Of a stretch of DNA of 37,206 bases, positions 1,612 through 37,206 are shown in pieces. Positions within the stretch are counted from its first letter, which is position 1. Each line of letters starts with the position of its first letter. The notes beneath the pieces are model-generated. The model had not been told where the DNA came from. It saw nothing but the letters and a program-made list of their open reading frames with translations, and made no database searches. This DNA comes from Hyphomicrobiales bacterium (GTDB taxonomy: Bacteria > Pseudomonadota > Alphaproteobacteria > Rhizobiales > OSC116): assembly GCA_016744975.1 (NCBI GenBank), contig JADGDI010000015.1, positions 1-37,206 of the forward strand, read 5' to 3'. A program made the translations under genes and the position numbers.

Positions 1612-2250
1612 TTATCTATATGGACAAGTTTTAATAAAATATGGGCAAAGCTGGTTAAATTCTTCTAACCATGCGACCAAAACAGTATGATCATCACGCC
1701 ACTGGCCTATGTTTTGGCCAAGCTTAGTGCCATTTTTTACATCTGCATTTATACGAATATCCAAATATTCCAATAATACTGCCAAGCTGATATTTACAAT
1801 GTTCAGCTTTTGTAATGAAGGCAAGTTTTCTACAAACCAGCACAAACCTTTGTTCAATTTAGCCATTTGCATATCTACAATCTCTTGACAAAATTTTTCT
1901 GCGGGTCGAAGCCGACTCTCATATACGACCAATACAGCCGCATCAGTAATACCTGCAACCAACTTAGCTTCAGTCAACTTCAAATATTTATCAGCCCCGC
2001 TTGGTAATATTTTTTCACTACTACCAATTTCATCCAAATATTCTATTATCACTTCACTGTCATAAATTGCACCACCTTTAGCCAATAATAAAGTTGGTAT
2101 TTTACCCAATGGGTTTTCTAATTCCAAAGGGTCATTCACGTCATGCGTCTTAGCGTTTTGAATATCCACCAAGCCACAAAGACCATGATGTTCAATTACA
2201 ACGTCAACCTTTCTGCAAAAAGGAGAAGGTGTATTATGTAGTAAAGTCAT
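1612..2250 (-). CDS. Glutathione S-transferase family protein
   Basis: N-terminal thioredoxin-like fold MTLLHNTPSPFCRKVDVVIEHHGL with PLGKIPTLLL and SEVIIEYLDE. The ORF-track start (2289) adds 13 residues before the canonical GST start. Confidence 0.85.
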   Translation of the reverse strand: MTLLHNTPSPFCRKVDVVIEHHGLCGLVDIQNAKTHDVNDPLELENPLGKIPTLLLAKGGAIYDSEVIIEYLDEIGSSEKILPSGADKYLKLTEAKLVAGITDAAVLVVYESRLRPAEKFCQEIVDMQMAKLNKGLCWFVENLPSLQKLNIVNISLAVLLEYLDIRINADVKNGTKLGQNIGQWRDDHTVLVAWLEEFNQLCPYFIKTCPYR

Positions 2251-2348
2251 TCGTTTCAGCATATCATTTATCTTCCTTAGAATAGGCACCCATTGACAAA
2301 TTAAAATTAAACATTAGCTAATATACATCAACCATAAGTGAGGTAAAT

Positions 2349-3203
2349 ATGTCAAACTTTAAAATTCCAGAAATCAATATATCACGCCATACTGCTCAAG
2401 CGGGCATGGATGACGACATTGACTTTGAAATTAAAGGCCAAGAAATGCAATTTGTAGAAATTGAACTTGACCCTGGTGAAAGTGCGATAGCAGAAGCTGG
2501 CGCTATGATGATGAAAAATTCAAACATCACAATGGATAGCGTGTTTGGCGATGGCTCAAACAATGAGCAACAAGGTGGTTTTTTTGACAAAATGCTCGGC
2601 GCGGGCAAACGTTTAATCACTGGTGAAAGCCTTTTTACCACCGTATTCACCCACCAAGGTCATGGCAAAGCCAAAGTCTCTTTTGCGGCACCTTATGCAG
2701 GGCATATCATCCCTGTTAAGTTGGATCAAATCGGTGGTAAAATCATCTGCCAAAAAGATGCATTTTTATGCGCGGCAAAAGGAGTTTCCATCGGCATTCA
2801 CTTTCAGAAAAAAATAATGACGGGCTTATTTGGTGGCGAAGGTTTTATCATGCAAAGCCTTGAAGGCGATGGTTGGGCATTCATTCATGCTGGTGGTACA
2901 TTGGTTGAACGCGAATTAGCGCCCGGTGAAATATTGCATGTCGATACGGGCTGCTTAGCGGCAATGGAGCCAACGGTAGACATGGATGTCGAACGCGCAG
3001 GCAATATTAAATCCATGATATTCGGCGGAGAAGGCGTATTTTTTGCAAGGCTCCAAGGCCCAGGAAAAGTGTGGATCCAATCATTGCCATTCTCGCGCTT
3101 AGCTGGCCGCATGTTTGCTAATGTACCACAATCAGGCGGTTCACAAGGTGAAGGTTCAATATTGGGCGGTGTAGGTCGCTTGTTAGATGGCGATAATTTT
3201 TAA
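2349..3203 (+). CDS. TIGR00266 / AIM24 family protein
   Basis: MQFVEIELDPGESAIAEAGAMMMK ... GLFGGEGFIMQSLEGDGWAFIHAGGTLVERELAPGEILHVDTGCLAAM is characteristic of the family. Confidence 0.92.
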   Translation: MSNFKIPEINISRHTAQAGMDDDIDFEIKGQEMQFVEIELDPGESAIAEAGAMMMKNSNITMDSVFGDGSNNEQQGGFFDKMLGAGKRLITGESLFTTVFTHQGHGKAKVSFAAPYAGHIIPVKLDQIGGKIICQKDAFLCAAKGVSIGIHFQKKIMTGLFGGEGFIMQSLEGDGWAFIHAGGTLVERELAPGEILHVDTGCLAAMEPTVDMDVERAGNIKSMIFGGEGVFFARLQGPGKVWIQSLPFSRLAGRMFANVPQSGGSQGEGSILGGVGRLLDGDNF

Positions 3204-3226
3204 TATTTTTCAAAAATTTCACATCC

Positions 3227-3267
3227 AAAGCCCAATCTATTCAACTAGCTTGGGCTTTTATTTTTTT
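3227..3267 (+). terminator. Rho-independent terminator downstream of the AIM24-family gene
   Basis: Stem AAAGCCCAA (3227-3235) / TTGGGCTTT (3250-3258) followed by a T-rich run (TATTTTTTTC). Confidence 0.75.
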
Positions 3268-3326
3268 CGCTTTAAACAACAATAAGACCAGCAATCCAGT
3301 CCCCATTGTTTACAAACCTTCATCAA

Positions 3327-4133
3327 TTAATCTAAAATCATAATTACCGACAATTGCCGACCTTCATTTTCTTGTTGATTATGAGTAGCGCGGCGATGGG
3401 AGTAAAGTATATCTTTATTAATATAAGTATCTATCTGAATATTATTAATATTTTCGACACCAACATTGTCTAAAATTTTGGCGGCAAGGCCAGGTAAGTT
3501 AAACATATAATGTTCAGGCCGTTCAGCTTTGCTAAAATAGGCTGAATATTCATAGCTTTGGCGGGTGAATTTCAAAACAATCTCTTTACCCACCTCATAG
3601 CTTTCACCAGCAATCGCAGGGCCAACCGATGCCACAATTTCATTCAGATTAGCACCCATCGACACCATTTTCTTTACGGTTGCCTGAATAATCCCCGCAT
3701 AAATACTCGGCCACCCAGCATGCACCGCCGCCACCATATCGCCATCGCCAGAACTCAGTAAAATCGGCACACAATCGGCGGTTCTAACACCCAATGCCAA
3801 ACCTTTTTGTTGGGTGATAATCGCGTCCGCCACTGGTTCAGGTATCATCAACCCGCCTTTTGCCACATGTATATCTTTTTCATGCACCTGCTTTACCGTA
3901 AATAAACGACTGCGACTAATGCCAAGACTTTGGCAAATAATATTCATATTGGCTTCAATATCCGTGGGGTCATCCAACGAAGTTTCGGGCAAACCCGTAT
4001 TTAAAGATGAAAACTCACCCCGTGAAACACCACCCAAACGAGTCGTGAAACAATGCTTAATTTGAGGTATATTGGTGAGATTTTGAGCCAAAAAGCACGG
4101 TAATTTGCCCATATTTTGCAGTTTTTTGTGCAT
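3327..4133 (-). CDS. pgeF: Polyphenol oxidase / peptidoglycan editing factor family (YfiH, DUF152)
   Basis: IKHCFTTRLGGVSRGEFSSLNTG, RTADCVPILL, VAAVHAGWPSIYAGI, VGPAIAGESYEVG. The track start is 4163; the ATG at 4133 has a better Shine-Dalgarno (AAGGG, 6-nt gap), and the ATG at 4112 is also possible. Confidence 0.9.
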   Translation of the reverse strand: MHKKLQNMGKLPCFLAQNLTNIPQIKHCFTTRLGGVSRGEFSSLNTGLPETSLDDPTDIEANMNIICQSLGISRSRLFTVKQVHEKDIHVAKGGLMIPEPVADAIITQQKGLALGVRTADCVPILLSSGDGDMVAAVHAGWPSIYAGIIQATVKKMVSMGANLNEIVASVGPAIAGESYEVGKEIVLKFTRQSYEYSAYFSKAERPEHYMFNLPGLAAKILDNVGVENINNIQIDTYINKDILYSHRRATHNQQENEGRQLSVIMILD

Positions 4134-4221
4134 TTTCGACCCTTTTTTAGCTATTTTTGTCATTTTTTAGCAGTCTTTTGTCGCTTTTTGGCTGTTTTTT
4201 ACCAAAAGTCTGTGCTTTTTT
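4114..4221. other. Helically phased A/T-tract array (predicted intrinsically curved DNA)
   Basis: T-runs on + strand at 4114-4117, 4122-4127, 4133-4136, 4143-4148, 4154-4158, 4163-4168, 4176-4179, 4185-4189, 4195-4200, 4216-4221; centre spacing averages ~10.3 bp per turn. Confidence 0.65.
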
Positions 4222-4222
4222 A

Positions 4223-5362
4223 CTATTCTAGCCCAAATCCAACGGGTGTAAACTCACAATTATGCAAACATAAAACCTTAAATAAGTTTCCCATCTCATC
4301 TTCGCCTATCAATCGGTTAAGGGCTTGGGCAATTTGCATTTCCTGCTCAGGGTTTTTAGAAATAAGCATTTGCGCCCGCAAGCCAATTGCCAAATCACCC
4401 AAAAACTCCGCTTGGCTTACAACAGTACTCGCCATAATATTTTGCGCATTCGCTGCTTCTTTTAGGCTGGTAAAATTGACATGTGCGGTGATATCTTGTT
4501 TGCCTAAATTTTTAAATATTTTAGCATATTTATGGGCTTTAACCGCTTGCAAGCTATCACCAAAACCATGCCCATCATGGCCATAATCAATGATTAAGGC
4601 CACACCGCCATTACGTTTCAAAACCTCGATTATCTTGCCTAAATAAAACAAACTAGCAGGGCTTTGTTCAAATATCGCGCCATCAACCGCGCGGTCTTTT
4701 AATATATTTGGCAACGCAACTTTTGCCGCTTGCATCGATAATGTTGGGCCAATTTTACCATCTTTAACCCCAACCATACGCTCATACCAAGCGCCGTCCA
4801 AAAACTCATATTGACTGATTGGTAAAGCATCAAAAAACTCGTTGGCAACAAATAGACAAGGCGATGAATTAATTGATGTTTTTAACCCATCAAGATTTTC
4901 GTGCCAAGTAATTTGACCCTCAAAGCTCGCTAATTTTTCTCGCTGCATCTGAACCAGTTTTGGACTCAGCTCGACCATATGAATGTTAAGTTTATATTTA
5001 CTCTTAAATTTAGCCATTGAGCGTAAAATATCAGCCATCAAAGTACCGCGCCCAGGGCCAAGTTCGATGATATTATAATCATCAGATGCAGGCATTTTAT
5101 CAATCGCATCGACCAGCCACAGGCCAATAATCTCACCAAACATTTGGCTAATTTCAGGCGCAGTGGTGAAATCCCCATCTTTGCCAAACACTTCAGATTT
5201 TATATAATAACCTTCGCTTGGGTGGGATAAGCATATCTGCATAAAGTCCGATATGCCAATCATGCCTTTTTCCGCGATATAGTTTTTTAAAATATTTTCT
5301 ATCACTAGGCTATACTTCTTCTGATAAGGTATCAGCTTGAGGTTTTGGTTTATAATTTTCAA
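4223..5362 (-). CDS. Class I SAM-dependent methyltransferase, MidA/NDUFAF7 family (DUF185)
   Basis: GDFTTAPEISQMFGEIIGLWL, IIELGPGRGTLMADILR, ALIIDYGHDGHGFGDSLQAVKAHKY. A GTG at 5305, just after the lgt stop, is a plausible alternative start that removes a 53-nt overlap. Confidence 0.92.
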   Translation of the reverse strand: MKIINQNLKLIPYQKKYSLVIENILKNYIAEKGMIGISDFMQICLSHPSEGYYIKSEVFGKDGDFTTAPEISQMFGEIIGLWLVDAIDKMPASDDYNIIELGPGRGTLMADILRSMAKFKSKYKLNIHMVELSPKLVQMQREKLASFEGQITWHENLDGLKTSINSSPCLFVANEFFDALPISQYEFLDGAWYERMVGVKDGKIGPTLSMQAAKVALPNILKDRAVDGAIFEQSPASLFYLGKIIEVLKRNGGVALIIDYGHDGHGFGDSLQAVKAHKYAKIFKNLGKQDITAHVNFTSLKEAANAQNIMASTVVSQAEFLGDLAIGLRAQMLISKNPEQEMQIAQALNRLIGEDEMGNLFKVLCLHNCEFTPVGFGLE

Positions 5363-6185
5363 CCTTTTTCTGAGCTGATTTTGAAGTAATAATCAACCAA
5401 GTACCAAGCAATAAAACTGGTAAAGATAAAATCATACCTTGCGTAATAAAACCAAGATAATAGCCAATCTGCGGATCTGGAACTCGATAAAACTCAACAA
5501 ATATACGGCTTGCACCATATATTAAACCAAACACCCCAGCCGTTAGACCAGGTCTTTTCAGGCTTTTAAAGTGCCAAACCATAATGAATAAAATAATGAA
5601 TGCAACCACACCTTCAAGCAGGCCTTCATATAATTGGCTCGGATGGCGCGGTACACCGCCGCCATTAGGAAAACGCACTGCCCAAGCCACATTGGTAACA
5701 TGTCCCCATAACTCATCATTAATAAAATTTGCAATCCGGCCAAGTAATATACCAATTGGTAATGCGGCCATTGAAACATCAAATAGATGACGATAATAAA
5801 CCTTTTTATATCGAGCAAAAATCATAACCACCAATGCCGAGAAAAATATACCGCCGTGAATGGACATGCCGCCATCCCAAATCTTGAATATATCCATTGG
5901 GCTTTCTAGATATTTTTCTAAATTATAAAATAGCACATAACCCATACGACCACCTGAAAACACACCAAAAATAAAGGTGTAAAATGCCATGTCGTCAATC
6001 AAATCAGAGTTCAAATTATAATGTTTCTGCCACAATTGTTTTTTACCAACCAGTATCTTCATATAAAAAATACTCAATAGCAAACCTACTAAATATGCCA
6101 TACCATACCATTTAACCGATACTGGCCCTAAAGCAAAAATTACGGGGTCAATTTGCGGGAAGGCAAAGCCAATTTCATTTTCCAT
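5310..6185 (-). CDS. lgt: Prolipoprotein diacylglyceryl transferase
   Basis: VKWYGMAYLVGLL, GGRMGYVLFYN, WDGGMSIHGG, GRIANFINDELWG, PRHPSQLYE, EFYRVPD. Confidence 0.97.
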   Translation of the reverse strand: MENEIGFAFPQIDPVIFALGPVSVKWYGMAYLVGLLLSIFYMKILVGKKQLWQKHYNLNSDLIDDMAFYTFIFGVFSGGRMGYVLFYNLEKYLESPMDIFKIWDGGMSIHGGIFFSALVVMIFARYKKVYYRHLFDVSMAALPIGILLGRIANFINDELWGHVTNVAWAVRFPNGGGVPRHPSQLYEGLLEGVVAFIILFIMVWHFKSLKRPGLTAGVFGLIYGASRIFVEFYRVPDPQIGYYLGFITQGMILSLPVLLLGTWLIITSKSAQKKVENYKPKPQADTLSEEV

Positions 6186-6280
6186 AAAACACTCTAATAA
6201 ATTTAATTTCCGACAGCTTATCCTATCTAATCTAAAATCAAAATATAATTCTCATCATCCAAGCAGAATCCTACACAATA

Positions 6281-6308
6281 AAAAAGCCTACATTAAAAAA
6301 TGTAGGCT
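6281..6308 (-). terminator. Rho-independent terminator of the pseudoazurin gene
   Basis: Stem AGCCTACATT (6285-6294) / AATGTAGGCT (6299-6308), loop AAAA; reads into a T-run on the minus strand. Confidence 0.8.
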
Positions 6309-6337
6309 CAAAACAATATATGTAATTTTAGTAGCAA

Positions 6338-6799
6338 TTACATTGCATCCACTTCTTCATATATTCTTTTATATACTTTTTTAGCATTACCTTTTTGTTT
6401 AAGAGCTTTTACGGCTTCATAATTGACTTTATAATCGCCTACTAAAATTAAACCAACCATGCCCATGCCACGGTGTGGGGTGCAAAAGTAACTATATGTA
6501 CCTTCTACATCAAAAGTAATTTCTGCATCTTTACCAATTTTGGTCTTCCAATTTTCAGCCCCTTCAGGAATGCCTTTTTTATCAGACTGACTATTATGGC
6601 CTTTACTTTTTGAAACAAACTTCACAGTATCGCCCAGCTCAATTTTAAGAACTTTCGGATAAAATGTATTGCGCTCTTTTTTGTTATCTGGGTTTTTGTT
6701 ATACATAAAAACTTCGTGTGTTTTTGCCCAAGCTGCACTCATACCAGCCGCCGATGAAATTGCTACAATCGCAACTGCGATAATTGAATTACGTAACAT
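6338..6799 (-). CDS. Pseudoazurin (type I blue copper protein)
   Basis: Signal peptide MLRNSIIAVAIVAISSAAGMSAAWA; KSKGHNSQ and copper loop YSYFCTPHRGMGMVGLILVGD. Confidence 0.93.
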   Translation of the reverse strand: MLRNSIIAVAIVAISSAAGMSAAWAKTHEVFMYNKNPDNKKERNTFYPKVLKIELGDTVKFVSKSKGHNSQSDKKGIPEGAENWKTKIGKDAEITFDVEGTYSYFCTPHRGMGMVGLILVGDYKVNYEAVKALKQKGNAKKVYKRIYEEVDAM

Positions 6800-7004
6800 A
6801 TGTGCTCTCCATTAAAATTTAATTTCTTTTAGGCTTCATATTTGTTTGATGCAAGTCATTATTAGTTATTATTCTTTATATATATTAGATAGTTAACTTG
6901 CTTTTTGTACATTATTGACGCAGTTTAAAGCAATTTGGAAATGTGGAAAACTATGCCATAGCTTTTAATTCAAAAAATAGTCACTATATAAAACCATATA
7001 GCCT

Positions 7005-7317
7005 AAGGAGCAATAAAATGAATGACCCGCATGTCGCACAAAAAATAATGACTTATGATGCCGCAAAAAAAGATATGGTTTTGGCCTATATCATCTGGTT
7101 TTTCTTGGGTACTTTTGGTGTGCATCGCTTATATATCGGCAAAACCATATCAGGTATATTAATGGCAATATTCCACATCTGCGCCTGGGCATTGACCATA
7201 GTATTTGTGGGTTTCATCGGGCTTGCAATCATTGGCGTAATTTGGCTTATCGATGCATTATTTTTGGCAGGCTGGGTCGAAGATTACAACCTTCAACTTG
7301 CCAATCAAATTGGGTAG
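7005..7317 (+). CDS. TM2 domain-containing membrane protein (CDS probably starts at ATG 7018)
   Basis: FLGTFGVHRLYIGKTISGILMAIFH ... VIWLIDALFLAGWVEDYN. AAGGAG Shine-Dalgarno at 7005-7010 points to the ATG at 7018 rather than 6943. Confidence 0.88.
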
Positions 7318-7471
7318 AACCCTAATATTTTGCCGTAATGCAAATATATTACGAAGAATTAATCCCCATTAATCCAGAACAATCGTTAAACTATATGAAA
7401 ATCAGTCAAAAAGGGTTACCCTCATTCCAATAGAGTGTGATTCTAGCTGCTAAATTGAGTAATAGTTTAAT

Positions 7472-7891
7472 ATGAATGATAAAGATAACAGTCGTAAAGG
7501 CCAAATCATTGGTTTTGGTGGGGTGTTTTTTAAAGCCAACCGCCCAAGTGACTTAGCCCAATGGTATAAAAACATCCTTGGCGTACCTGTTACTGATGGC
7601 GGCGTTGCATTGTTCAAACGCTCTGATAATCAAGACTTCGCTGAAAATGATGTAACCCTTTGGGCGCCATTTGAGCAAGATAATAATTATTTTGCGCCGT
7701 CAAATTCAAGTTTTTTAGTAAATTATCTGGTCGATGACCTTAATATGCTTTTGGACCGTTTAAAAAATCATGGTATTTTGCCTGTTCAACCGATTGAAAT
7801 TACCAAAGATGGAAAATTTGCATGGATTATGGATCCTGAAGGCAATAAAGTAGAATTATGGCAGCCCTTAAGACCTGAAGATCAAGCTTAA
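7472..7891 (+). CDS. VOC family protein (glyoxalase/bleomycin-resistance-like)
   Basis: GFGGVFFKANRPSDLAQWYKNILGVPV ... FAWIMDPEGNKVELWQP. Confidence 0.9.
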   Translation: MNDKDNSRKGQIIGFGGVFFKANRPSDLAQWYKNILGVPVTDGGVALFKRSDNQDFAENDVTLWAPFEQDNNYFAPSNSSFLVNYLVDDLNMLLDRLKNHGILPVQPIEITKDGKFAWIMDPEGNKVELWQPLRPEDQA

Positions 7892-7949
7892 TTCTGTTTT
7901 ATATCAATCTAATTTATTGTATTTAGACCATCAAGCTTTTTCATCAAGA

Positions 7950-8483
7950 CTATTCACCTTCAAATGCACAAATTGCACTTGCCTTAACACCAATTTCAGC
8001 CAGTTTACTCCCGCCGCCCAGCTCTGGTAGATCAACGATAAAGCCTGCATGTTCAACTGTTGCGCCCAACCGACGGATCAGCTTAACTGCCGCAATTGCC
8101 GTGCCACCTGTCGCTAACAAATCATCCAGTAATAGTATTTTTTGTCCTTTGGCCACTGCGTCAACGTGAATCTCAACAATTGCAGAGCCATATTCTAATT
8201 GATATTCTTCAGAAATGACATTGGCTGGCAATTTGCCTTTTTTACGAATGGCAACAAAGCCTTTGCCCATTTCTATTGCAAGCGCACCACCAATAATAAA
8301 ACCGCGCGCATCAATACCAGCAATTAAGTCAAATTCTTCGTTCTTATACAGTTCGGCAAGTTGTTTGATCACCTGCTTCATGCCTTCAGCATCTGCAAAT
8401 AATGTGGTTACATCCCTAAACATGATACCTGCATGAGGGTAATCAGGAATAGTCCGAATAAGCGGCTGAATGTTAAAGCTCAT
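7950..8483 (-). CDS. apt: Adenine phosphoribosyltransferase
   Basis: IRTIPDYPHAGIMFRDVTTL, IDARGFIIGGALA, ILLLDDLLATGGTAIAA. Confidence 0.97.
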   Translation of the reverse strand: MSFNIQPLIRTIPDYPHAGIMFRDVTTLFADAEGMKQVIKQLAELYKNEEFDLIAGIDARGFIIGGALAIEMGKGFVAIRKKGKLPANVISEEYQLEYGSAIVEIHVDAVAKGQKILLLDDLLATGGTAIAAVKLIRRLGATVEHAGFIVDLPELGGGSKLAEIGVKASAICAFEGE

Positions 8484-8486
8484 GGT

Positions 8487-9362
8487 TTATCCTTTTAAAA
8501 CACGCCCTGCAACGGCGTCTAATTTCGCTAATAATTGAGGTTCTCTGGACTCTGGTTTCGTCATTAAGGCATATTCTAATGCCCTGTCAGAACCAATAGA
8601 GCAAGTTGGATGTTGGCGCGGAAAAGTTTCTAATAACTTCAACACCAGTTTTGATGCATTTTGGTTATTCTGCGCTAAGACTGCTAGAATTTTAGGGATA
8701 TCAACTTCGCCATGCTCAGGGTGCCAACAATCATAATCTGTTACCATTGCAACTGATGCATAGCAAATTTCGGCCTCTCGGGCTAATTTTGCTTCTGGCA
8801 TATTGGTCATGCCAACCACGTCACACCCCCAACTACGGTATAACTCACTTTCGGCCAAGCTACCAAATTGTGGGCCTTCCATTGCCAAATATGTGCCATT
8901 AAGGTGGCTATTAACACCTATTGATTGGCAGCTATCATAAACCCTTTTCTTAAGATCAGGACTTATGGGATAGGCAAGAGAAACATGGGCGACAAGCCCT
9001 TTACCAAAAAAACTTTTTTCTCGATTTACAGTGCGGTCAATATATTGATCAAGCACTACAAAGTCACCAGGAGCGAATTCTAATTTTAATGAACCTACTG
9101 CACTGAGTGATATCAAGTCAGTCACACCACAGCGTTTTAATATATCGATGTTCGCACGGTAATTAATGTCAGTTGGGCTAATGTCGTGACCACGGCCATG
9201 GCGCGGTAAAAACACTAATTTGAGACCATTAAACTCAGCAATCATCACTTCATCTGAGGGCTCGCCCCAAGGCGATTCTACTTTAACCCATTGCTTTTCA
9301 GTAATTTCAGGCAAGTCATAAATGCCGCTTCCACCAATGAAACCTAAAACTGTTTTTGTCAT
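8487..9362 (-). CDS. mtnP: S-methyl-5'-thioadenosine phosphorylase
   Basis: GFIGGSGIYDLP, LPRHGRGHDISPTDINYRANI, TYLAMEGPQFGSLAESELYRSWGCDVVGMTNMPEAKLAREAEICYA. Confidence 0.96.
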   Translation of the reverse strand: MTKTVLGFIGGSGIYDLPEITEKQWVKVESPWGEPSDEVMIAEFNGLKLVFLPRHGRGHDISPTDINYRANIDILKRCGVTDLISLSAVGSLKLEFAPGDFVVLDQYIDRTVNREKSFFGKGLVAHVSLAYPISPDLKKRVYDSCQSIGVNSHLNGTYLAMEGPQFGSLAESELYRSWGCDVVGMTNMPEAKLAREAEICYASVAMVTDYDCWHPEHGEVDIPKILAVLAQNNQNASKLVLKLLETFPRQHPTCSIGSDRALEYALMTKPESREPQLLAKLDAVAGRVLKG

Positions 9363-28670: not shown

Positions 28671-29147
28671 ATGAGCAATATGAAAGCAACAACATCCGTA
28701 GCTACAACATCCGTAGCTACAACATCCGATGCGGCAATTATACTCAAAATTGTAAGAGCATCCATAACACAATTATGCGTGCTTGATCACAGCAACGATA
28801 AAGCCAAGCTTGACGAATGGTTAAACAATAAAACTTTAGAAAATATTCTAAAATGGATTGAAGATGAAAAGTTATATTTTATTAAGGCAGAATTAAATGG
28901 CCAAATAGTCGCGATGGGTTGCGCCAATTTGCAAGGTCGTATTTTAATGAATTATGTATCGCCAAAGCATCAATATTTAGGCGCAAGCAAAGCCATTATG
29001 CAAGATTTAGAGCGATTTTTATTAACTTCTGGCATAACCAAAGCAACCTTAGAATCCAGTAAAACCGCTCTAAAATTCTACCAAGCCTGCAATTGGCAAA
29101 TTAAAAATGGTGAAGATGATACAATTCAAATGTTTAAAATATTATAA
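28671..29147 (+). CDS. GNAT family N-acetyltransferase with N-terminal TTSVA repeats
   Basis: IVRASITQLCVLDHSNDKAKLDEWLNNKT ... YLGASKAIMQDLERFLLTSG ... KFYQACNW. Confidence 0.85.
   Translation: MSNMKATTSVATTSVATTSDAAIILKIVRASITQLCVLDHSNDKAKLDEWLNNKTLENILKWIEDEKLYFIKAELNGQIVAMGCANLQGRILMNYVSPKHQYLGASKAIMQDLERFLLTSGITKATLESSKTALKFYQACNWQIKNGEDDTIQMFKIL
28686..28730 (+). repeat. 15-bp in-frame minisatellite, 3 copies (GCTACAACATCCGTA type)
   Basis: 28686-28700 gcaacaacatccgta, 28701-28715 gctacaacatccgta, 28716-28730 gctacaacatccgat; encodes ATTSV ATTSV ATTSD. Confidence 0.92.
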
Positions 29148-29248: not shown

Positions 29249-30520
29249 TTAAAATGAATATGCGATTCCAAGCGCAAGACTTTGCCAGAACCATAGCAGT
29301 ATGGCTGTACCAAGCATCATCAGTGCAAACGGCCACGCGCCTTTTACCACCTCTTCTAACCGCGCCTTACCCACCGCTTGAATAATGAATAAATTTAAGC
29401 CAACAGGTGGGGTAATTAATGCCGTTTCAATAAGCACCACAAAGAAAATACCAAACCAAATAGGGTCAATACCCATCATAGTCAAAGCAGGAAATAAAAC
29501 AGGTACCATGATAAGCAGCATGGAAAGTGATTCTAAAAAGAACCCGATTAATAATAAGACACCGCCGACGGCTAGCATGAATATGGTCGGATCAGATATA
29601 TTGGTGGTCAGCAATTCAGAGATATTTTGTGGAATTCGGTAAAGTGTAATTGCATATGAGAAGACTTTTGCACCCGCAATGATAAGAAAAATCATAGTGG
29701 TTGTTTTCATTGCTTCATATACCGCATCTTTTAATTTATGCCATGTCATTCTACCCATTGCAAAGGTAATGATGATTGAAAGAACAAAGCCAACACCCGC
29801 ACTTTCAGAAGGGGTTGCAATGCCCATATAAATGGACCCAATAATACACACAGCCAGACCCACAGTTGGTATTGCCATCAGCGTGGTTTTGCGTCTCGTA
29901 CCCCAACTTGCCTTTTCAATATGATCTTGCTTGCCTTTAATGCGCGCATAAAAAATAGAATAGATAATAAAGACAGTGGCTAAAAATAAACCAGGGCCAA
30001 TGCCAGCTAAAAACAAAGTTGGAATTGAAGTTTCTGTAATAATACCATAAATGATTAATGGAATAGAAGGCGGGATTAATATCCCCAATGTCCCCCCAGC
30101 AGCTAACAAACCCAATACGAATGGGCGGTCATAACCACGTTTGGTCATTTCTGGAATTGCGACAGTGCCTATGGTTGCAGCTGTAGCCACAGAAGAGCCA
30201 GAAACAGCAGAAAACATACCGCAAGACAAAATGGTCGCCACACCAAGGCCACCTGGCCAATGGCCAACCCAACTTTGAACCGCAGCAAATAAATCCTTAC
30301 CGACATTGCCTTTTAACAAAACATTGGACATGAGCAAAAACATTGGAACAGCCAATAATTCAAAACTATCCATTGTGCCGTAAAGACGTTGTGGTACAGC
30401 ATTTAGCGGCAATGGGAAAACCCATAATAAGAACACACCAAGTGCGCCCATAGCAAAAGCAACTGGCACCCGCATTAATAGTAAAAAAAGCAGTGCAGAA
30501 ATAATAATTAGTGAGGCCAT
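29249..30520 (-). CDS. dctM: TRAP transporter large permease subunit
   Basis: 423 aa, multi-TM; MRVPVAFAMGALGVFLL, SGSSVATAATIGTVAIPEMTKRGYDRPFVLGLLAAGGTLGILIPPSIPLIIYG. Confidence 0.96.
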   Translation of the reverse strand: MASLIIISALLFLLLMRVPVAFAMGALGVFLLWVFPLPLNAVPQRLYGTMDSFELLAVPMFLLMSNVLLKGNVGKDLFAAVQSWVGHWPGGLGVATILSCGMFSAVSGSSVATAATIGTVAIPEMTKRGYDRPFVLGLLAAGGTLGILIPPSIPLIIYGIITETSIPTLFLAGIGPGLFLATVFIIYSIFYARIKGKQDHIEKASWGTRRKTTLMAIPTVGLAVCIIGSIYMGIATPSESAGVGFVLSIIITFAMGRMTWHKLKDAVYEAMKTTTMIFLIIAGAKVFSYAITLYRIPQNISELLTTNISDPTIFMLAVGGVLLLIGFFLESLSMLLIMVPVLFPALTMMGIDPIWFGIFFVVLIETALITPPVGLNLFIIQAVGKARLEEVVKGAWPFALMMLGTAILLWFWQSLALGIAYSF

Positions 30521-31053
30521 TAATGCGCTCCTTCCAAGATGTCATTGTCAACAATCCCAATGGTCCAAACTTTTATAATTTCAACAAATGCTTGCAGCAT
30601 TAACAAGCCAAAACCTATCCAGATTGAGGCATGAGTTAACCATTTTGGAGTGCCTAAATAACTGTCTGTGGTGTGGCCTTTTAAGGTGGCTTTGAGCCAT
30701 AGCTCATAACCATACCACGTAGCAACAGCACAGAATATGATGATTATCAATAGAGAAAAAGTTTCGACATATTTTCTTAAAATCGACTTTGTATCGCGAA
30801 ATGTAATATCAATTACAATCATTTGCCGATGTTTAAGCGCGAAAGCCCCACCAAGATATGTCGCCCATATTTGCATTATACGTGCTGATTCATCAACCCA
30901 AATAGTTGGAGAGTTAAACATATAACGCATAAAAACTTCATATGTAATGAATAATCCAATAGTAAAAAATACCCAAGCAGCAAATTTACCCATATATTCT
31001 GAAATTTGATCAATAAAACTTATCATATAAATGCACCTAATGCCCCTTATCAA
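30520..31053 (-). CDS. dctQ: TRAP transporter small permease subunit
   Basis: Four TM segments; EVFMRYMFNSPTIWVDESARIMQIWATYLGGAFALKHRQMIVID. Overlaps dctM by 1 nt (TAATG). Confidence 0.95.
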   Translation of the reverse strand: MIRGIRCIYMISFIDQISEYMGKFAAWVFFTIGLFITYEVFMRYMFNSPTIWVDESARIMQIWATYLGGAFALKHRQMIVIDITFRDTKSILRKYVETFSLLIIIIFCAVATWYGYELWLKATLKGHTTDSYLGTPKWLTHASIWIGFGLLMLQAFVEIIKVWTIGIVDNDILEGAH

Positions 31054-31071
31054 TCGTTATGATAAAGGGCA
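31041..31071 (-). promoter_or_regulatory. Intercistronic stem-loop between dctP and dctQ
   Basis: TGCCCCTTATCA (31041-31052) pairs with TGATAAAGGGCA (31060-31071), one mismatch; no strong U-tract. Confidence 0.65.
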
Positions 31072-31092
31072 GCTTTAGAGTTGGTTGTTAAT

Positions 31093-32085
31093 CTACTTAG
31101 AGCTATTTGCAGCTTCGATTGCTTTAACAGCAACATCACCACGTTCTGCAGCGAATTTTTCTACAACCGATTTGGTCGCGTCTACCCAAAGTGCACGCTC
31201 ATCAGCGGTTAAGCTTACCACATTAATTTTGCTAGACATTTCTTCAATCATTGCGGCCTCACCTTGATAAACTTGATCCCGCAATTGTTTTTCTACAGTA
31301 GCAGCAGCGTCAGTAATGATTTTTTGGTTTTCAGCAGATAGTGAGTTAAAGAAATCATTATTTATAACAGCCACAAATTCAATAGCACTGTCATAACTTA
31401 AAGTTACATTGTCCATCACTTCATAAAGCTTTCGGCTTTTAACACCAGAAGCGCCTGTCATGCCAACATCAACAGCGCCTTGTTGATATGCTAAAAATTG
31501 TTTAGAACCTGACATTAATGTTGGCGCACCACCTAATGCTTGAACAGTCCATCCAAGTACTTTACCATATGTTCTAACTTTTTTACCGTTCAGATCGGCC
31601 GGAGTGCGAATAGGCTCGCCCTTATTCAGATAAACATTACGGCCATAAGCTTGCCACCAAAGCACCTTAGCACCAGTTTCTTTTACAACCGCAGCATCCA
31701 AAATTTCGCGCATTTCTGAGCCATTGGCAGCAGAGGCACGCAAATGAGCTTCATCTTTGAAGAAAAACGGTAAGTTAACAATTTCTACGGCAGGTACAGC
31801 ACCAGCAAAACGACCTAGGAAAGCCGAGCCAGCTTCAATAGCACCAGAACCGACTGCTTCAGGTACTTGTTTATCTTTGTATAATTGTGCTGATGGAAAT
31901 AGTTCTAATTTTAAATCGCCACCAGATTCAGCTTCAATGATCTTTTTAAATGCTAACCAGTTTTGACCAAGCGAATGCTTTTCTGGCAACTGTAATGTTA
32001 CCCGAATTGTTGTTTCAGCCTGAGCAACAATGCTCGTGCTTAGCAATAGAGCGCCTACAAGCGCGCCTTTTAATAGTTTGTTCAT
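31093..32085 (-). CDS. dctP: TRAP transporter substrate-binding protein
   Basis: Signal peptide ...STSIVAQAE; FPSAQLYKDKQVPEAVGSGAIEAG, PADLNGKKVRTYGKVLGWTVQALGGAPTLMSGSKQFLAYQQGAVDVGMTG. Confidence 0.95.
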   Translation of the reverse strand: MNKLLKGALVGALLLSTSIVAQAETTIRVTLQLPEKHSLGQNWLAFKKIIEAESGGDLKLELFPSAQLYKDKQVPEAVGSGAIEAGSAFLGRFAGAVPAVEIVNLPFFFKDEAHLRASAANGSEMREILDAAVVKETGAKVLWWQAYGRNVYLNKGEPIRTPADLNGKKVRTYGKVLGWTVQALGGAPTLMSGSKQFLAYQQGAVDVGMTGASGVKSRKLYEVMDNVTLSYDSAIEFVAVINNDFFNSLSAENQKIITDAAATVEKQLRDQVYQGEAAMIEEMSSKINVVSLTADERALWVDATKSVVEKFAAERGDVAVKAIEAANSSK

Positions 32086-32126
32086 TACTTTTCCCTCTTT
32101 TTTACTCTAATATTAATGTTGACTCA

Positions 32127-33059
32127 TTAATTAAGTTTTGGCAACCCTGCCTTTGCCAGCGCCCCAAACAAAGGCTCATCTGGCATTTCTTGTTTCAAAA
32201 TCTTACGAACTTGAATCAATTTTTCTAAATTTACTCCAGTGTTAAATCCGCTATTATCACAGAGGAACACTAAATCTTCCATTACAATGTTACCTGTTGC
32301 ATTTGGTGCAGCTGGGCAGCCTCCCAAACCGCCAATAGATGCATCGAGCAATCGAACACCTTGGCCCAACGCGGCCGTAGCATTGGCGATTCCCATACCG
32401 CGAGTATCGTGTAAATGAACCCCAAAAGGTTTATTATCAGCAAGCTTATACATTTCTCTAGACAAAAATTCAACTTGCCTTGGCGCAGCATAACCAACAG
32501 TATCGGCAATGGAAACCAAGTCCGCACCCAAGCTATAACAATACTCAGCCAACGAAAGAACAGCAGATGGGTTAACATGACCAGAGATTGAACAGCCAAA
32601 ACTCATTGCGATACCAACACCGATATGAGTAGGTATTTTTTGTTGATCGCGTAGACTACATATCTCTTTAATTTCTTGTAACGTCGCAGCTTGACTACGA
32701 TTCAGGTTGGCTAAATTATGTGCTTCACTAGCAGAAACCACACAATGTATTTCTGAAACACCCGATTTTAGCCCATCTAAACTACCATGTTTATTGGGAG
32801 ATAAACCCGTACTAAAAGCATTTTCCAAATTGCTAATTTTGGTAATTAAATCATCCATATCAGCAAACATCGGATACCGCTCTTTGGGTAAAAATGTGCC
32901 AATTTCAAAATGACGAATTCCGGCATTATATTCTTGCGATATCCAATTTAACTTACCTTGTGTTGATGGATATTTTTTTACCATTTGCAAGCCATCACGA
33001 AGCCCAACTTCTCGTAACGAAACTTGGTTTGGTGGGTAGACTATACTAATATCAGTCAT
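32127..33059 (-). CDS. Hydroxymethylglutaryl-CoA lyase-like (HMGL/DRE-TIM metallolyase)
   Basis: REVGLRDGLQ, HFEIGTF, GVHLHDTRGMGIAN, LDASIGGLGGCPAAPNATGNIVMEDLVFL: catalytic Arg/Asp, HxH metal site and Cys loop preserved. Confidence 0.9.
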   Translation of the reverse strand: MTDISIVYPPNQVSLREVGLRDGLQMVKKYPSTQGKLNWISQEYNAGIRHFEIGTFLPKERYPMFADMDDLITKISNLENAFSTGLSPNKHGSLDGLKSGVSEIHCVVSASEAHNLANLNRSQAATLQEIKEICSLRDQQKIPTHIGVGIAMSFGCSISGHVNPSAVLSLAEYCYSLGADLVSIADTVGYAAPRQVEFLSREMYKLADNKPFGVHLHDTRGMGIANATAALGQGVRLLDASIGGLGGCPAAPNATGNIVMEDLVFLCDNSGFNTGVNLEKLIQVRKILKQEMPDEPLFGALAKAGLPKLN

Positions 33060-34206
33060 TTACGCCTCCTGACACCATTTTTAGTTCATCCATAACTTCT
33101 CGTGTATGAGCACCTAAATTAGGAACATTTAGAGTTTCAACAAACCCCGCTCCGTCAAATTCAATCGGTAAGGTTGGACTTCTAAATGGCTGACCATCGA
33201 CATTTAGTGAAGTTACCAAACCGCCCTCACGCAATACATGCGGATCGTCAAACATATCTTCGGGTCGATTAATACACGAGAATGGAATGTTTAATTTATC
33301 CAGTGCAATTACCAAATCAGCCAAACTATGTTGTTTTATTTTTGATGATACAATCGGCACTGTCCAATGCCGTGCGCTAATACGGCTTGTGGCTTCTTGC
33401 AAACGTGGATCATCTATAAACTCTTGCAAATCATACTTCTTACAAAAATCTCGCCAATGGCCGCTTGTTACCACAGCTATGAAAATTTGTTTATTGTCAC
33501 TGGTTTTAAAAATATCATAAATTGGCCATGTATGTTCACGTTGGGACATAGGCACAGAAGGCTTGCCTGTTAATTCAAACTGTACCATATGTTGTGCAAC
33601 CAAAAACAAGCAATTCTCAAACAATCCGATCCGCACTTCTTTACCTTTTGCCGTCTCTTTTCGTTCAATTATGGCAGCCAATATCCCAATAACCCCAAAC
33701 ATGCCGCCCATTATATCATTAGCAGATGAACCAACACGCTTCGGCTCATCTTGTGTGCCAGTCATCACAGCCAAACCACTCATCATTTGGACAACTTCAT
33801 CCAACGCTGGGCGGTGCTCATAGGGGCCAGACAAAAAACCTTTATGGCCAGCAATAATTAATTTAGGAAATTTTTCTCGAAGCATCGCTCTATTTATACC
33901 TTGCTTCTCAAGTTGTCCATCGCGAAAGTTTTCAATAAAAACATCCGCTGTTTCAAGTAGTTTTAAAAAGGTTTCAAGGCCTTCCTGCCCATTCATGTCA
34001 ATTACAACGGATCGTTTACCTCGGTTAAATAGTGGAAAAAACGAAGTGCCCATGCCTTTTAAGTCTCTGGTTTTATCACCTTTTAATGGTTCCACTTTTA
34101 TTACATCTGCGCCAAGTTGAGCTAAAATCATACCACAAGCTGGCCCCATAACCATATGACTCATTTCAATCACGCGGATGTTTTTAAGTGGAAGATGGTC
34201 TGTCAT
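33052..34206 (-). CDS. CoA-transferase family III (CaiB/BaiF-type)
   Basis: IRVIEMSHMVMGPACGMILAQLGADVIKVEPLKGDKTRDL, NRGKRSVVIDM, VFIENFRDG, GFLSGPYEHRPALDEVVQMMSGLAVMTG (catalytic Asp position). Confidence 0.95.
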   Translation of the reverse strand: MTDHLPLKNIRVIEMSHMVMGPACGMILAQLGADVIKVEPLKGDKTRDLKGMGTSFFPLFNRGKRSVVIDMNGQEGLETFLKLLETADVFIENFRDGQLEKQGINRAMLREKFPKLIIAGHKGFLSGPYEHRPALDEVVQMMSGLAVMTGTQDEPKRVGSSANDIMGGMFGVIGILAAIIERKETAKGKEVRIGLFENCLFLVAQHMVQFELTGKPSVPMSQREHTWPIYDIFKTSDNKQIFIAVVTSGHWRDFCKKYDLQEFIDDPRLQEATSRISARHWTVPIVSSKIKQHSLADLVIALDKLNIPFSCINRPEDMFDDPHVLREGGLVTSLNVDGQPFRSPTLPIEFDGAGFVETLNVPNLGAHTREVMDELKMVSGGVND

Positions 34207-34293
34207 TAATACTTACCTAATAATATATAATCTGTTAATCGCTATGCTATCACCTATTTATTATTCTTTAAAATATAATGTTTTGATAGTATC

Positions 34294-34310
34294 GTTCTAT
34301 ATGCTAGAAC
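34294..34310. promoter_or_regulatory. Candidate LysR operator (inverted repeat GTTCTA-N5-TAGAAC)
   Basis: GTTCTATATGCTAGAAC ends 6 nt before the LysR ATG, inside the 110-bp divergent intergenic region; contains T-N11-A. Confidence 0.5.
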
Positions 34311-34316
34311 ATAATT

Positions 34317-35234
34317 ATGGATATTAAACAACTTACTTATTTTATTTCGGTTTACGAGCATACCAACTTATCCCATGCCGCTAGCCACTTGTCAGTTGCA
34401 CAAAGTGCGGTCAGTCATCATATTAGTAATTTAGAAGCCGAATTTGGAACATCGCTATTTATGCGCAAACCCAGAGGGATGGAACCAACCGCAGCGGGCT
34501 TAAAATTATACAATCATGCCTGTCATATCGTAGCATCTGTAAAAGCTGCAGAAAATGATATGTTAAGTGAAGCGCAAGAAATTACAGGCGAAATTGTTAT
34601 TGGCCTGCCTTTTTCAGTTATGAAAGGCATTGGGGTAAAATTAATGAAAGGCGTATTAACCCGTTACCCAAAAATACGACTTTCAATTGTAGAGGGCTTA
34701 TCTGGCAACATCCAATCAAATTTATTATCCTCAGAAGTTGATTTGGCATTATTCTACAACCCCCATAAAGACAGAAATATTACCATGGAGCATGTGCTTG
34801 AAGAAGAGGTTTTCTGCATCGGCACAAAATCTACAATTTCTGACACAGATCTACCCATTACATTTAATGACCTTATCAAACTTCCATTGTTAATGCTAAG
34901 AGAAGGTGGTGCCTCACGCGCATTAATTAATAAACCGGGGCTTTTAGCAAAGCTGGATTCTAACGCATTATTACAGCTCAACTCAATTACTGGAATAACC
35001 GACGCGATGCTAGAGGGCTTTGGCTGCACAATAGCACCAAAACTATTTGTACAAGAATATTTACACGACGGCAGGCTACATGCACGGCCCATCATTAACC
35101 CATATATTACAAGACATCTATATATGGGCTGTCTACGAAGCTATTCCTCCAGCATATTACTTGAAGCCATTAAAAGTCTGATACTAGAACTCATTAAAAC
35201 AGAAATTAGCGCAAGTCGCTGGATTATAAAATAA
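34317..35234 (+). CDS. LysR family transcriptional regulator
   Basis: MDIKQLTYFISVYEHTNLSHAASHLSVAQSAVSHHISNLEAEFGTSLFMRKPRGMEPTAAG winged helix-turn-helix. Confidence 0.96.
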   Translation: MDIKQLTYFISVYEHTNLSHAASHLSVAQSAVSHHISNLEAEFGTSLFMRKPRGMEPTAAGLKLYNHACHIVASVKAAENDMLSEAQEITGEIVIGLPFSVMKGIGVKLMKGVLTRYPKIRLSIVEGLSGNIQSNLLSSEVDLALFYNPHKDRNITMEHVLEEEVFCIGTKSTISDTDLPITFNDLIKLPLLMLREGGASRALINKPGLLAKLDSNALLQLNSITGITDAMLEGFGCTIAPKLFVQEYLHDGRLHARPIINPYITRHLYMGCLRSYSSSILLEAIKSLILELIKTEISASRWIIK

Positions 35235-35923: not shown

Positions 35924-36200
35924 ATTCCAGTTTTTAAAAACTGAAAAATGCTGGCACAACTCACAAAACCTAATTCAAACAACCTTAAACCGTTATATTA
36001 TAACCGTTTGTTTTAGGTGTGCTGACTGCCAATAAACCTATGAAATAAAAGAAACACATATTTTAGTGTATACCTCCATTATTATCGGCTCAAATATGAG
36101 TTTATATTCAATTAAATTAGAGAGATAGTTTATTCTAAATATTTTTTTAATATATGAGCATTACATTGAGAATTATAGGGGGCTTATTTAGGAGTTGCGA

Positions 36201-37206
36201 ATGCATAAATTCTTGATTAAAATTCTCTTAGTCACTCAGTTTTTATTTTTAGGGTATATTAGTGCTCAAGCGGCAAGTTGGCAGGTTAGGAAGGTCAGCG
36301 GCCAAGTCATATTTGTAAAAAAAGGATATGCGGAAAAGTGGCTAGAGGTAAATGATCAGTTTGCACCAGGGGATCGCATTGAAACCTTAGCGTCAGGTTC
36401 TGCTTCGCTATCGCGTTACGGCGAGGCAATGATTATCTCATCCAACAGTATACTCATGTTACCAGAAGAGGGTAATGACGGTTATATCACCACCATTTTT
36501 CAGACTTTAGGCACTGCGTTATTTTCAGTCAAAAAGAAACAAACTAAACATTTTGAAGTAAGAACGCCCTATGCGGCGGCTTTGGTAAAAGGCACTACCT
36601 TTGCAGTTAACGTAAATCAAAGTAACTCCCAATTGCAGGTATTCGAGGGTGCCATCGAGCTTAGTGGCAAAAAGCGGAGTAAAAAAGTTATCGTTGCTGC
36701 AGGTAGGAAATCCGTCACCCCACATAATGTAGCAGCCAAAGTCATTGTAAAAAAAGTTGCCAATACCTCACGAATTAACCCCCATTTAGGTGATAATGTT
36801 AAAAAACTGGCAGAAACATATATTAATAAAATTGCAATTGGAAAAAGCAACAAAAATCAGTTTACAAATAACATCATTAGACCGTTTAAAACACCGGGTA
36901 AGTCGATAAATAAAAAGAAAGTATTTAAAGGCAAGATCAGTAAAGCTTTGGTTGAAAAAATACGAATAGTTAAAAAACCAAAGCCTACAAGAAAAACACC
37001 TAAACCGATCAGAGCAAACAGCATTGAACAGTCAAATAGCAAAGCTGCAACAAATGACAATCAAGCAAAAAATGGATATGTTCCTAAAGCCGCTAAGCAC
37101 AAGCCAGAGAAAAATGGATATGCACCTAAAGCCGCTAAGCACAAGTCTGCGAAAAATGGATATGCACCTAAAGCCGCTAAGCACAAGTCTGCGAAAAGTA
37201 GATATG
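36201..37206 (+). CDS. Secreted FecR-domain protein with Lys-rich C-terminal tandem repeats (partial, runs off window)
   Basis: Open frame from ATG 36201 (GGAG at 36191-36194) to window end. Signal peptide MHKFLIKILLVTQFLFLGYISAQA; FecR core ASWQVRKVSGQVIFVKKGYAEKWLEVNDQFAPGDRIETLASGSASLSRYGEAMIIS...FEVRTPYAAALVKGTTFAV. Absent from the ORF track because it has no stop in the window. Confidence 0.88.
   Translation, partial: MHKFLIKILLVTQFLFLGYISAQAASWQVRKVSGQVIFVKKGYAEKWLEVNDQFAPGDRIETLASGSASLSRYGEAMIISSNSILMLPEEGNDGYITTIFQTLGTALFSVKKKQTKHFEVRTPYAAALVKGTTFAVNVNQSNSQLQVFEGAIELSGKKRSKKVIVAAGRKSVTPHNVAAKVIVKKVANTSRINPHLGDNVKKLAETYINKIAIGKSNKNQFTNNIIRPFKTPGKSINKKKVFKGKISKALVEKIRIVKKPKPTRKTPKPIRANSIEQSNSKAATNDNQAKNGYVPKAAKHKPEKNGYAPKAAKHKSAKNGYAPKAAKHKSAKSRY
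37068..37206 (+). repeat. 42-bp coding tandem repeat (14 aa: KNGYAPKAAKHKSA), three full copies plus a partial fourth
   Basis: Units 37068-37109, 37110-37151, 37152-37193, partial 37194-37206; units 2 and 3 identical in all 42 bp. Confidence 0.95.

Follow-up and report, generated by a model that had tools for sequence, protein, structure and literature searches.

Introduction

The nearest characterised analogue of the locus described here is the itaconate operon of Pseudomonas aeruginosa, ict-ich-ccl together with IctPQM (PA0878-PA0886). The locus itself, a cassette of six genes encoding a LysR-type regulator, a family III CoA-transferase (CaiB), an HMGL-like lyase and the TRAP transporter DctPQM, lies in a stretch of 37,206 nucleotides from a Hyphomicrobiales bacterium (assembly GCA_016744975.1, contig JADGDI010000015.1, positions 1 to 37,206), hereafter the window. 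The P. aeruginosa operon acts on a branched C5 diacid taken up by the TRAP transporter IctPQM, itself a recruited transporter (PMC12599236, PMC9875883, PMC12290011), and its transferase and lyase alone are enough for (S)-citramalate (PMC12599236, PMC9875883). Like the cassette of the window, it links a TRAP transporter to a CoA-transferase and to a CoA-ester lyase that yields (in our case, would yield) acetyl-CoA. However, the operon of the window has no hydratase and its lyase is HMGL-like rather than Ccl, neither an itaconyl-CoA hydratase nor a Ccl-type lyase being found among its genes. Itaconate and mesaconate were set aside as substrates, since the hydratase that they require is absent from the operon. 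In a fold comparison, DctP of the window was ~24% identical to PA0884.

Other described systems resemble the cassette in part. In Burkholderia phymatum and Cupriavidus taiwanensis, an operon induced by Mimosa root exudate, which its authors assigned to mevalonate/isoprenoid catabolism, pairs a CaiB/BaiF CoA-transferase with a hydroxymethylglutaryl-CoA lyase as the window does, a likeness by description, but no TRAP transporter is mentioned for it (PMC5789663). The 3-hydroxy-3-methylglutaryl-CoA (HMG-CoA) lyase of leucine and ketone-body metabolism has its family and catalytic residues in common with the window's lyase, yet the latter scores below the NCBIfam cut-off and falls in a separate, operon-linked subfamily. 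On plasmid pCSC3H3 of Thalassospira marina, a TRAP transporter of the same clade as that of the window stands beside a petal-death-protein-like C-C lyase, which differs from the window's in belonging to the isocitrate-lyase/PEP-mutase family and in needing, by the chemistry of that family, no CoA activation. Literature searches for the exact arrangement, CaiB-HMGL-DctPQM with a divergent LysR, found nothing.

Here we propose that the cassette is a substrate-inducible import, CoA-activation and cleavage unit, most likely for a 2-substituted malate, a reading whose probability we put at slightly below one half, and that its transporter has been exchanged for one of another clade.

Results

Layout of the cassette

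A first-pass annotation, made from the letters of the window alone, had described five minus-strand genes and a divergent LysR gene, and coordinates as well as Pfam and NCBIfam matches bore out both their places and their families. The TRAP genes belong to a clade here called type B, as opposed to the type A of related cassettes.

34317-35234, plus strand: LysR-type regulator, divergent from the operon (Pfam HTH_1 and LysR_substrate; 53-63% identity to the LysR of the nearest cassettes)
34293-34309, minus strand: candidate operator TTCTA-N6-AGAACG, a conserved LysR-box-like inverted repeat within the LysR-CaiB gap
34270-34285, minus strand: second conserved element, CAAAACATTATATTTT, adjoining the operator; a probable promoter or activation site
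33052-34206, minus strand: CaiB, family III (CaiB/Frc) CoA-transferase (Pfam CoA_transf_3, E 1.4e-100)
32127-33059, minus strand: HMGL-like TIM-barrel lyase (Pfam HMGL-like), of a divergent subfamily with the catalytic motifs kept
31093-32085, minus strand: DctP, solute receptor of type B (Pfam DctP), with an N-terminal signal region and Arg171 in a KVRTYGK motif
30520-31053, minus strand: DctQ, small TRAP permease of type B (Pfam DctQ), 22-35% identical to type-A DctQ
29249-30520, minus strand: DctM, large TRAP permease of type B (TIGR00786, 385.6 bits, over the cut-off; type-B clade support 100)

The span first annotated, 29249-34316, ends just short of LysR (34317). The genes are tightly packed: the CaiB gene shares 8 nt with that of HMGL and the DctQ gene 1 nt with that of DctM, both as read at first, 41 nt separate HMGL from DctP, and 110 nt lie between LysR and CaiB. 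On the dctQ side of dctP, ATG 31026 is the likelier start of dctQ than the TTG 31053 of the open reading frame, which makes the dctP-dctQ gap 66 nt. In codon usage and G+C, the six genes match the rest of the window, housekeeping genes included, and terminator and promoter scans scored no better than shuffles. The genome comprises 2.77 Mb in 191 contigs, and its order also holds Bradyrhizobium and Rhodobium loci of the kind described below.

Conservation of the cassette and of its operator-like motif

A profile scan with the HMGL alignment yielded 80 named loci. The complete order, CaiB-HMGL-DctP-DctQ-DctM with a divergent LysR, was present in 21 of them, and a CaiB gene with its motif stood directly upstream of HMGL in at least 73. 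Carriers of the six-gene order include Paracoccus, Cohaesibacter, Sneathiella, Rhodobium, Chelativorans, Pseudaminobacter, Oceanibacterium, Actibacterium, Marivita, Pseudooceanicola and the betaproteobacterium Paenalcaligenes, and plasmids of Sulfitobacter, Pseudosulfitobacter, Paracoccus and Rhizobium sullae carry these six genes as a compact block, with transposases nearby in the first two. Because the order is kept in more than 20 other genomes, the arrangement is not a chance one. The TRAP and CoA genes do occur together elsewhere; had they not, the first-pass annotation would have counted its reading as refuted. Bradyrhizobium loci hold the CaiB-HMGL pair, mostly with LysR, without an adjacent TRAP; there, 39 open reading frames match an aromatic-acid-type MFS transporter adjoining LysR. 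The cassette was not found in five other genomes of the window's genus and is therefore accessory in that genus. A gene of the gamma-carbonic-anhydrase family (CaiE/PaaY-like), perhaps an accessory part, repeatedly adjoins the CaiB-HMGL-TRAP cassette (L062, L063, L069, L089, L230 and L234).

The LysR-CaiB gap of the window aligns with that of nine related loci across TTCTA-N6-AGAACG and the CAAAACATTATATTTT that follows it, and this pattern is also recognisable in loci of Paracoccus, Chelativorans, Marivita, Pseudaminobacter and Pseudooceanicola. Since the six-gene block is conserved, the operator shared and the cassette found on plasmids, the six genes likely make up one unit of import, activation and cleavage, as had been suggested at the outset.

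A type-B transporter in a type-A slot

CaiB, HMGL and LysR of the window are 60-70% identical to their counterparts in loci L052 and L053, and in the HMGL tree the window falls within the clade of type-A cassettes (supports 96 and 98). The transporter tells otherwise. Measured against 22 related cassettes, DctP of the window is 25-33% identical, DctQ 22-35% and DctM 38-43%, whereas DctP of L053 shares 72-83% identity with the DctPs of its seven nearest neighbours. The closest relatives of the window's TRAP proteins are found in other loci (DctP 75-76% identical to L196, DctM 77% to G860), and the DctM and DctP trees both place the window in the separate type-B clade (branch support 100). In an approximately unbiased (AU) test, grouping the window with type A was rejected for DctM (p 0.026) and not for DctP (p 0.36); mixed as this outcome is, sequence identities and tree placement agree in setting the window's TRAP apart. 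The simplest reading of these comparisons is that a non-orthologous type-B set took the place of the original TRAP genes within the operon. Findings on DctP therefore cannot be carried over between this genome and its relatives. The replacement transporter may serve the same substrate.

Arg171 of DctP is invariant in receptor alignments A2 and A3. The AlphaFold2 model of DctP (pLDDT 85.6) had TRAP receptors throughout as its best fold matches in the PDB, and since sequence and fold searches of the PDB gave only generic TRAP receptors (~18-27% identity), no ligand can be transferred. In L234, on a plasmid of Azospirillum lipoferum 4B (1881-8773), a type-A TRAP (DctM 63% identical to that of L053) is arranged differently, as LysR-DctPQM-HMGL-CaiB, and its HMGL falls outside the clade of the window, so pairings of transporter and enzymes have been reshuffled there too.

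The CoA enzymes

The candidate nucleophile of CaiB is Asp136 in a GPYxxRxALDE motif, present in all 73 CaiB orthologues, which we take to be equivalent to Asp169 of FRC. CaiB fell under every NCBIfam equivalog cut-off (best 229.7 bits against a cut-off of 750), and thus matched none of the assigned oxalate, carnitine, mesaconate or glutarate CoA-transferases at that level. In the lyase the catalytic motifs (Arg-Asp, Glu, HxH and Cys) are kept, R21, D22, E52, H215, H217, C248 and N257 being invariant in the alignment and in comparison with solved lyases. It missed the cut-off of the NCBIfam HMG-CoA-lyase model NF004283 (223.4 bits against 246), which distant HMGLs, those of L198 and L211, do clear (315-321 bits), and close to the conserved motifs it carries subfamily-specific changes such as GCPYEG to GCSISG. 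By the curated cut-off, then, this enzyme is no orthodox HMG-CoA lyase and belongs to a separate, operon-linked subfamily. No second HMG-CoA lyase was seen in the window's genome.

Gene neighbourhoods that bear on the substrate

Two kinds of neighbouring gene point to a substrate class. In a class-wide sample, an enzyme of the isocitrate-lyase/PEP-mutase family adjoins dctPQM in 12 of 21 type-B loci. Among solved structures this enzyme is closest to petal death protein and next to methylisocitrate lyases, and 2,3-dimethylmalate lyase is a further solved relative; its score stays under the NCBIfam cut-off for methylisocitrate lyase. Petal death protein itself cleaves 2-alkylmalates, and the lyases of its family act on 2-hydroxy acids. 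Receptor segments like those of the window (QA[FY]GRN[VI]YL, VRTYGK..GWTV and [YF]DSAIEF) were found in L222 and L223, both with such a lyase. In the order to which genome G920 belongs, each of the six type-B TRAPs found is accompanied by a distant CaiB-HMGL pair, in four cases as LysR-CaiB-HMGL-DctPQM and in two as DctPQM-lyase-CaiB-HMGL. Type-B TRAPs have therefore come together with CaiB-HMGL pairs on more than one occasion, and with an unrelated C-C lyase as well. Behind a type-B TRAP, L211 (10919-14009) and L212 (2939-6044) carry a petal-death-like lyase, CaiB and HMGL in a single operon, that is, two unrelated C-C lyases, maybe for one substrate or for two stereoisomers.

The second kind lies beside type-A cassettes. 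4-Hydroxyphenylpyruvate dioxygenase (HPPD) is encoded near 6 of 27 of them (three Paracoccus, Chelativorans, Actibacterium and Marivita), in several arrangements, and none of ~92 comparison loci has it nearby (Fisher p ~8e-5, with relatedness ignored); in Paracoccus sp. AK26, hmgA-fahA-maiA stand on one side of the cassette and hppD on the other. Indolepyruvate ferredoxin oxidoreductase (IOR), another arylpyruvate enzyme, is encoded next to the cassette of Paroceanicella and that of Paracoccus versutus. The window's own genome encodes HPPD on another contig; other homogentisate genes were not found in the 43% of that genome that was covered, which is no evidence of absence.

A proposed substrate class, 2-substituted malates

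In the mechanism we propose, LysR would bind the conserved operator and switch on the single operon, DctPQM would bring in a hydroxy-dicarboxylate, the CaiB-type transferase would put CoA on the imported acid, and the HMGL-family lyase would cut the CoA ester by retro-Claisen cleavage. A 2-substituted malate, HOOC-C(OH)(R)-CH2-COOH, would in this way be converted via its C4-CoA ester to acetyl-CoA and the 2-oxo acid R-CO-COOH; were R 4-hydroxybenzyl, the product would be 4-hydroxyphenylpyruvate, the substrate of HPPD. This class is favoured because the petal-death-like lyases beside type-B TRAPs and the HPPD genes beside one type-A clade both fit it. The HPPD gene of the window's own genome, and the failure to see a second HMG-CoA lyase there, also count in its favour. 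A narrower version, which we offer tentatively and regard as unlikely in itself, takes the substrates to be 2-(arylmethyl)malates, such as 2-(4-hydroxybenzyl)malate (eucomate) or 2-benzylmalate, whose cleavage to 4-hydroxyphenylpyruvate or phenylpyruvate and acetyl-CoA would feed HPPD and the homogentisate pathway. Drawn by analogy from a sister clade, it is an attractive but speculative proposal for this genome.

Several points weigh against the 2-substituted malates. The class is predicted from gene context, as are the ligand and the activity, and the lyase linked to type-B TRAPs was putatively assigned by similarity. Around the receptors closest to that of the window, the neighbouring genes are mostly uninformative (L161, L196, L221 and L224-L227). 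A single HMGL clade (support 99), not the window's own, holds all six HPPD-linked cassettes, so the HPPD link is probably of one origin that survived rearrangement and may be a single evolutionary event. Finally, a 3-oxoacid CoA-transferase and a thiolase, both encoded in the window's genome, could use acetoacetate from 3-hydroxy-3-methylglutarate (HMG), and because the former is present, the usability of acetoacetate does not separate the substrate hypotheses. The second 3-oxoacid CoA-transferase subunit of this genome (contig C141, 7933-8497) is split across two frames, probably by an assembly frameshift.

Alternative readings

The first-pass annotation had named HMG, citramalate or a related branched hydroxy-diacid. 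Import of HMG, its activation to HMG-CoA and cleavage to acetoacetate and acetyl-CoA would agree with a lyase that belongs to the HMGL family with its catalytic residues retained and has HMG-CoA lyases as its best solved relatives, with a succinate-hydroxymethylglutarate CoA-transferase structure counted among CaiB's relatives, and with the genome's enzymes for acetoacetate. This substrate is nonetheless weakened by the missed HMG-CoA-lyase cut-off and the GCSISG change, by the lyase family at type-B TRAPs, which acts on 2-hydroxy acids, of which HMG is not one, and by the HPPD and IOR neighbours, which it leaves unexplained; we consider it rather unlikely.

Citramalate and related branched hydroxy-diacids stay within the favoured class. 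Citramalate alone, a small C5 acid and the small-R case of a 2-substituted malate, would be cleaved to pyruvate and acetyl-CoA, and citramalate synthases are among the relatives of the lyase. The known citramalyl-CoA lyase, Ccl, is of the CitE type and thus belongs to a different family, and citramalate also leaves HPPD and IOR near type-A cassettes unexplained. That (S)-citramalate needs nothing beyond transferase and lyase in the itaconate system of Pseudomonas (PMC9875883) speaks for it, and on balance we find it doubtful, much as we do HMG.

It is less probable still that the TRAP and the CoA enzymes have different substrates, an unrelated type-B TRAP having come to lie behind CaiB-HMGL after loss of the original and being merely co-transcribed. 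Indeed, no other cassette in the clade has a TRAP orthologous to the window's, and the neighbours of the closest relatives of the window's TRAP are, as noted, mostly uninformative. However, it occupies the identical slot with tight spacing, type-B TRAPs pair with other CaiB-HMGL genes in six genomes of another order, and the Bradyrhizobium pair exists without an adjacent TRAP, so that retention of one here suggests use. An assembly chimera joining two genomes at the HMGL-dctP junction of this multi-contig assembly is very improbable: no second genome with this CaiB-HMGL clade and a type-B TRAP was found and the same-genus genomes lack the cassette, but order and spacing are those of an intact operon, which a random join would hardly recreate, and neither codon usage nor G+C shifts across the junction.

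Other features of the window

A protein with a FecR domain (36195-37205), truncated by the window end, carries near-identical C-terminal PKAAKHK(P/S)(E/A)KNGYA repeats, and the start of a GNAT-family gene (28671-28722) codes for an ATTSV repeat and overlaps a 12-pair inverted repeat.

Discussion

Beyond what had been read from the window at first, the new points are the apparent replacement of the transporter and the link to arylpyruvate enzymes. CaiB/HMGL pairs are common in the sampled proteobacteria, above all in Bradyrhizobium, and are annotated as 'hydroxymethylglutaryl-CoA lyase'; a tested substrate for such pairs was not found in the literature. A conserved, plasmid-borne cassette, linked to arylpyruvate enzymes in one clade, gives them a testable substrate class and suggests that the HMG label may be mistaken. 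The window further offers a clean case of a non-orthologous transporter within an otherwise conserved operon, which lets the convergence of two unrelated TRAP receptors on one ligand be tested. If true, the arylmethylmalate version would amount to an unassigned catabolic route, kept in this organism while a TRAP from a 2-alkylmalate uptake lineage was swapped in.

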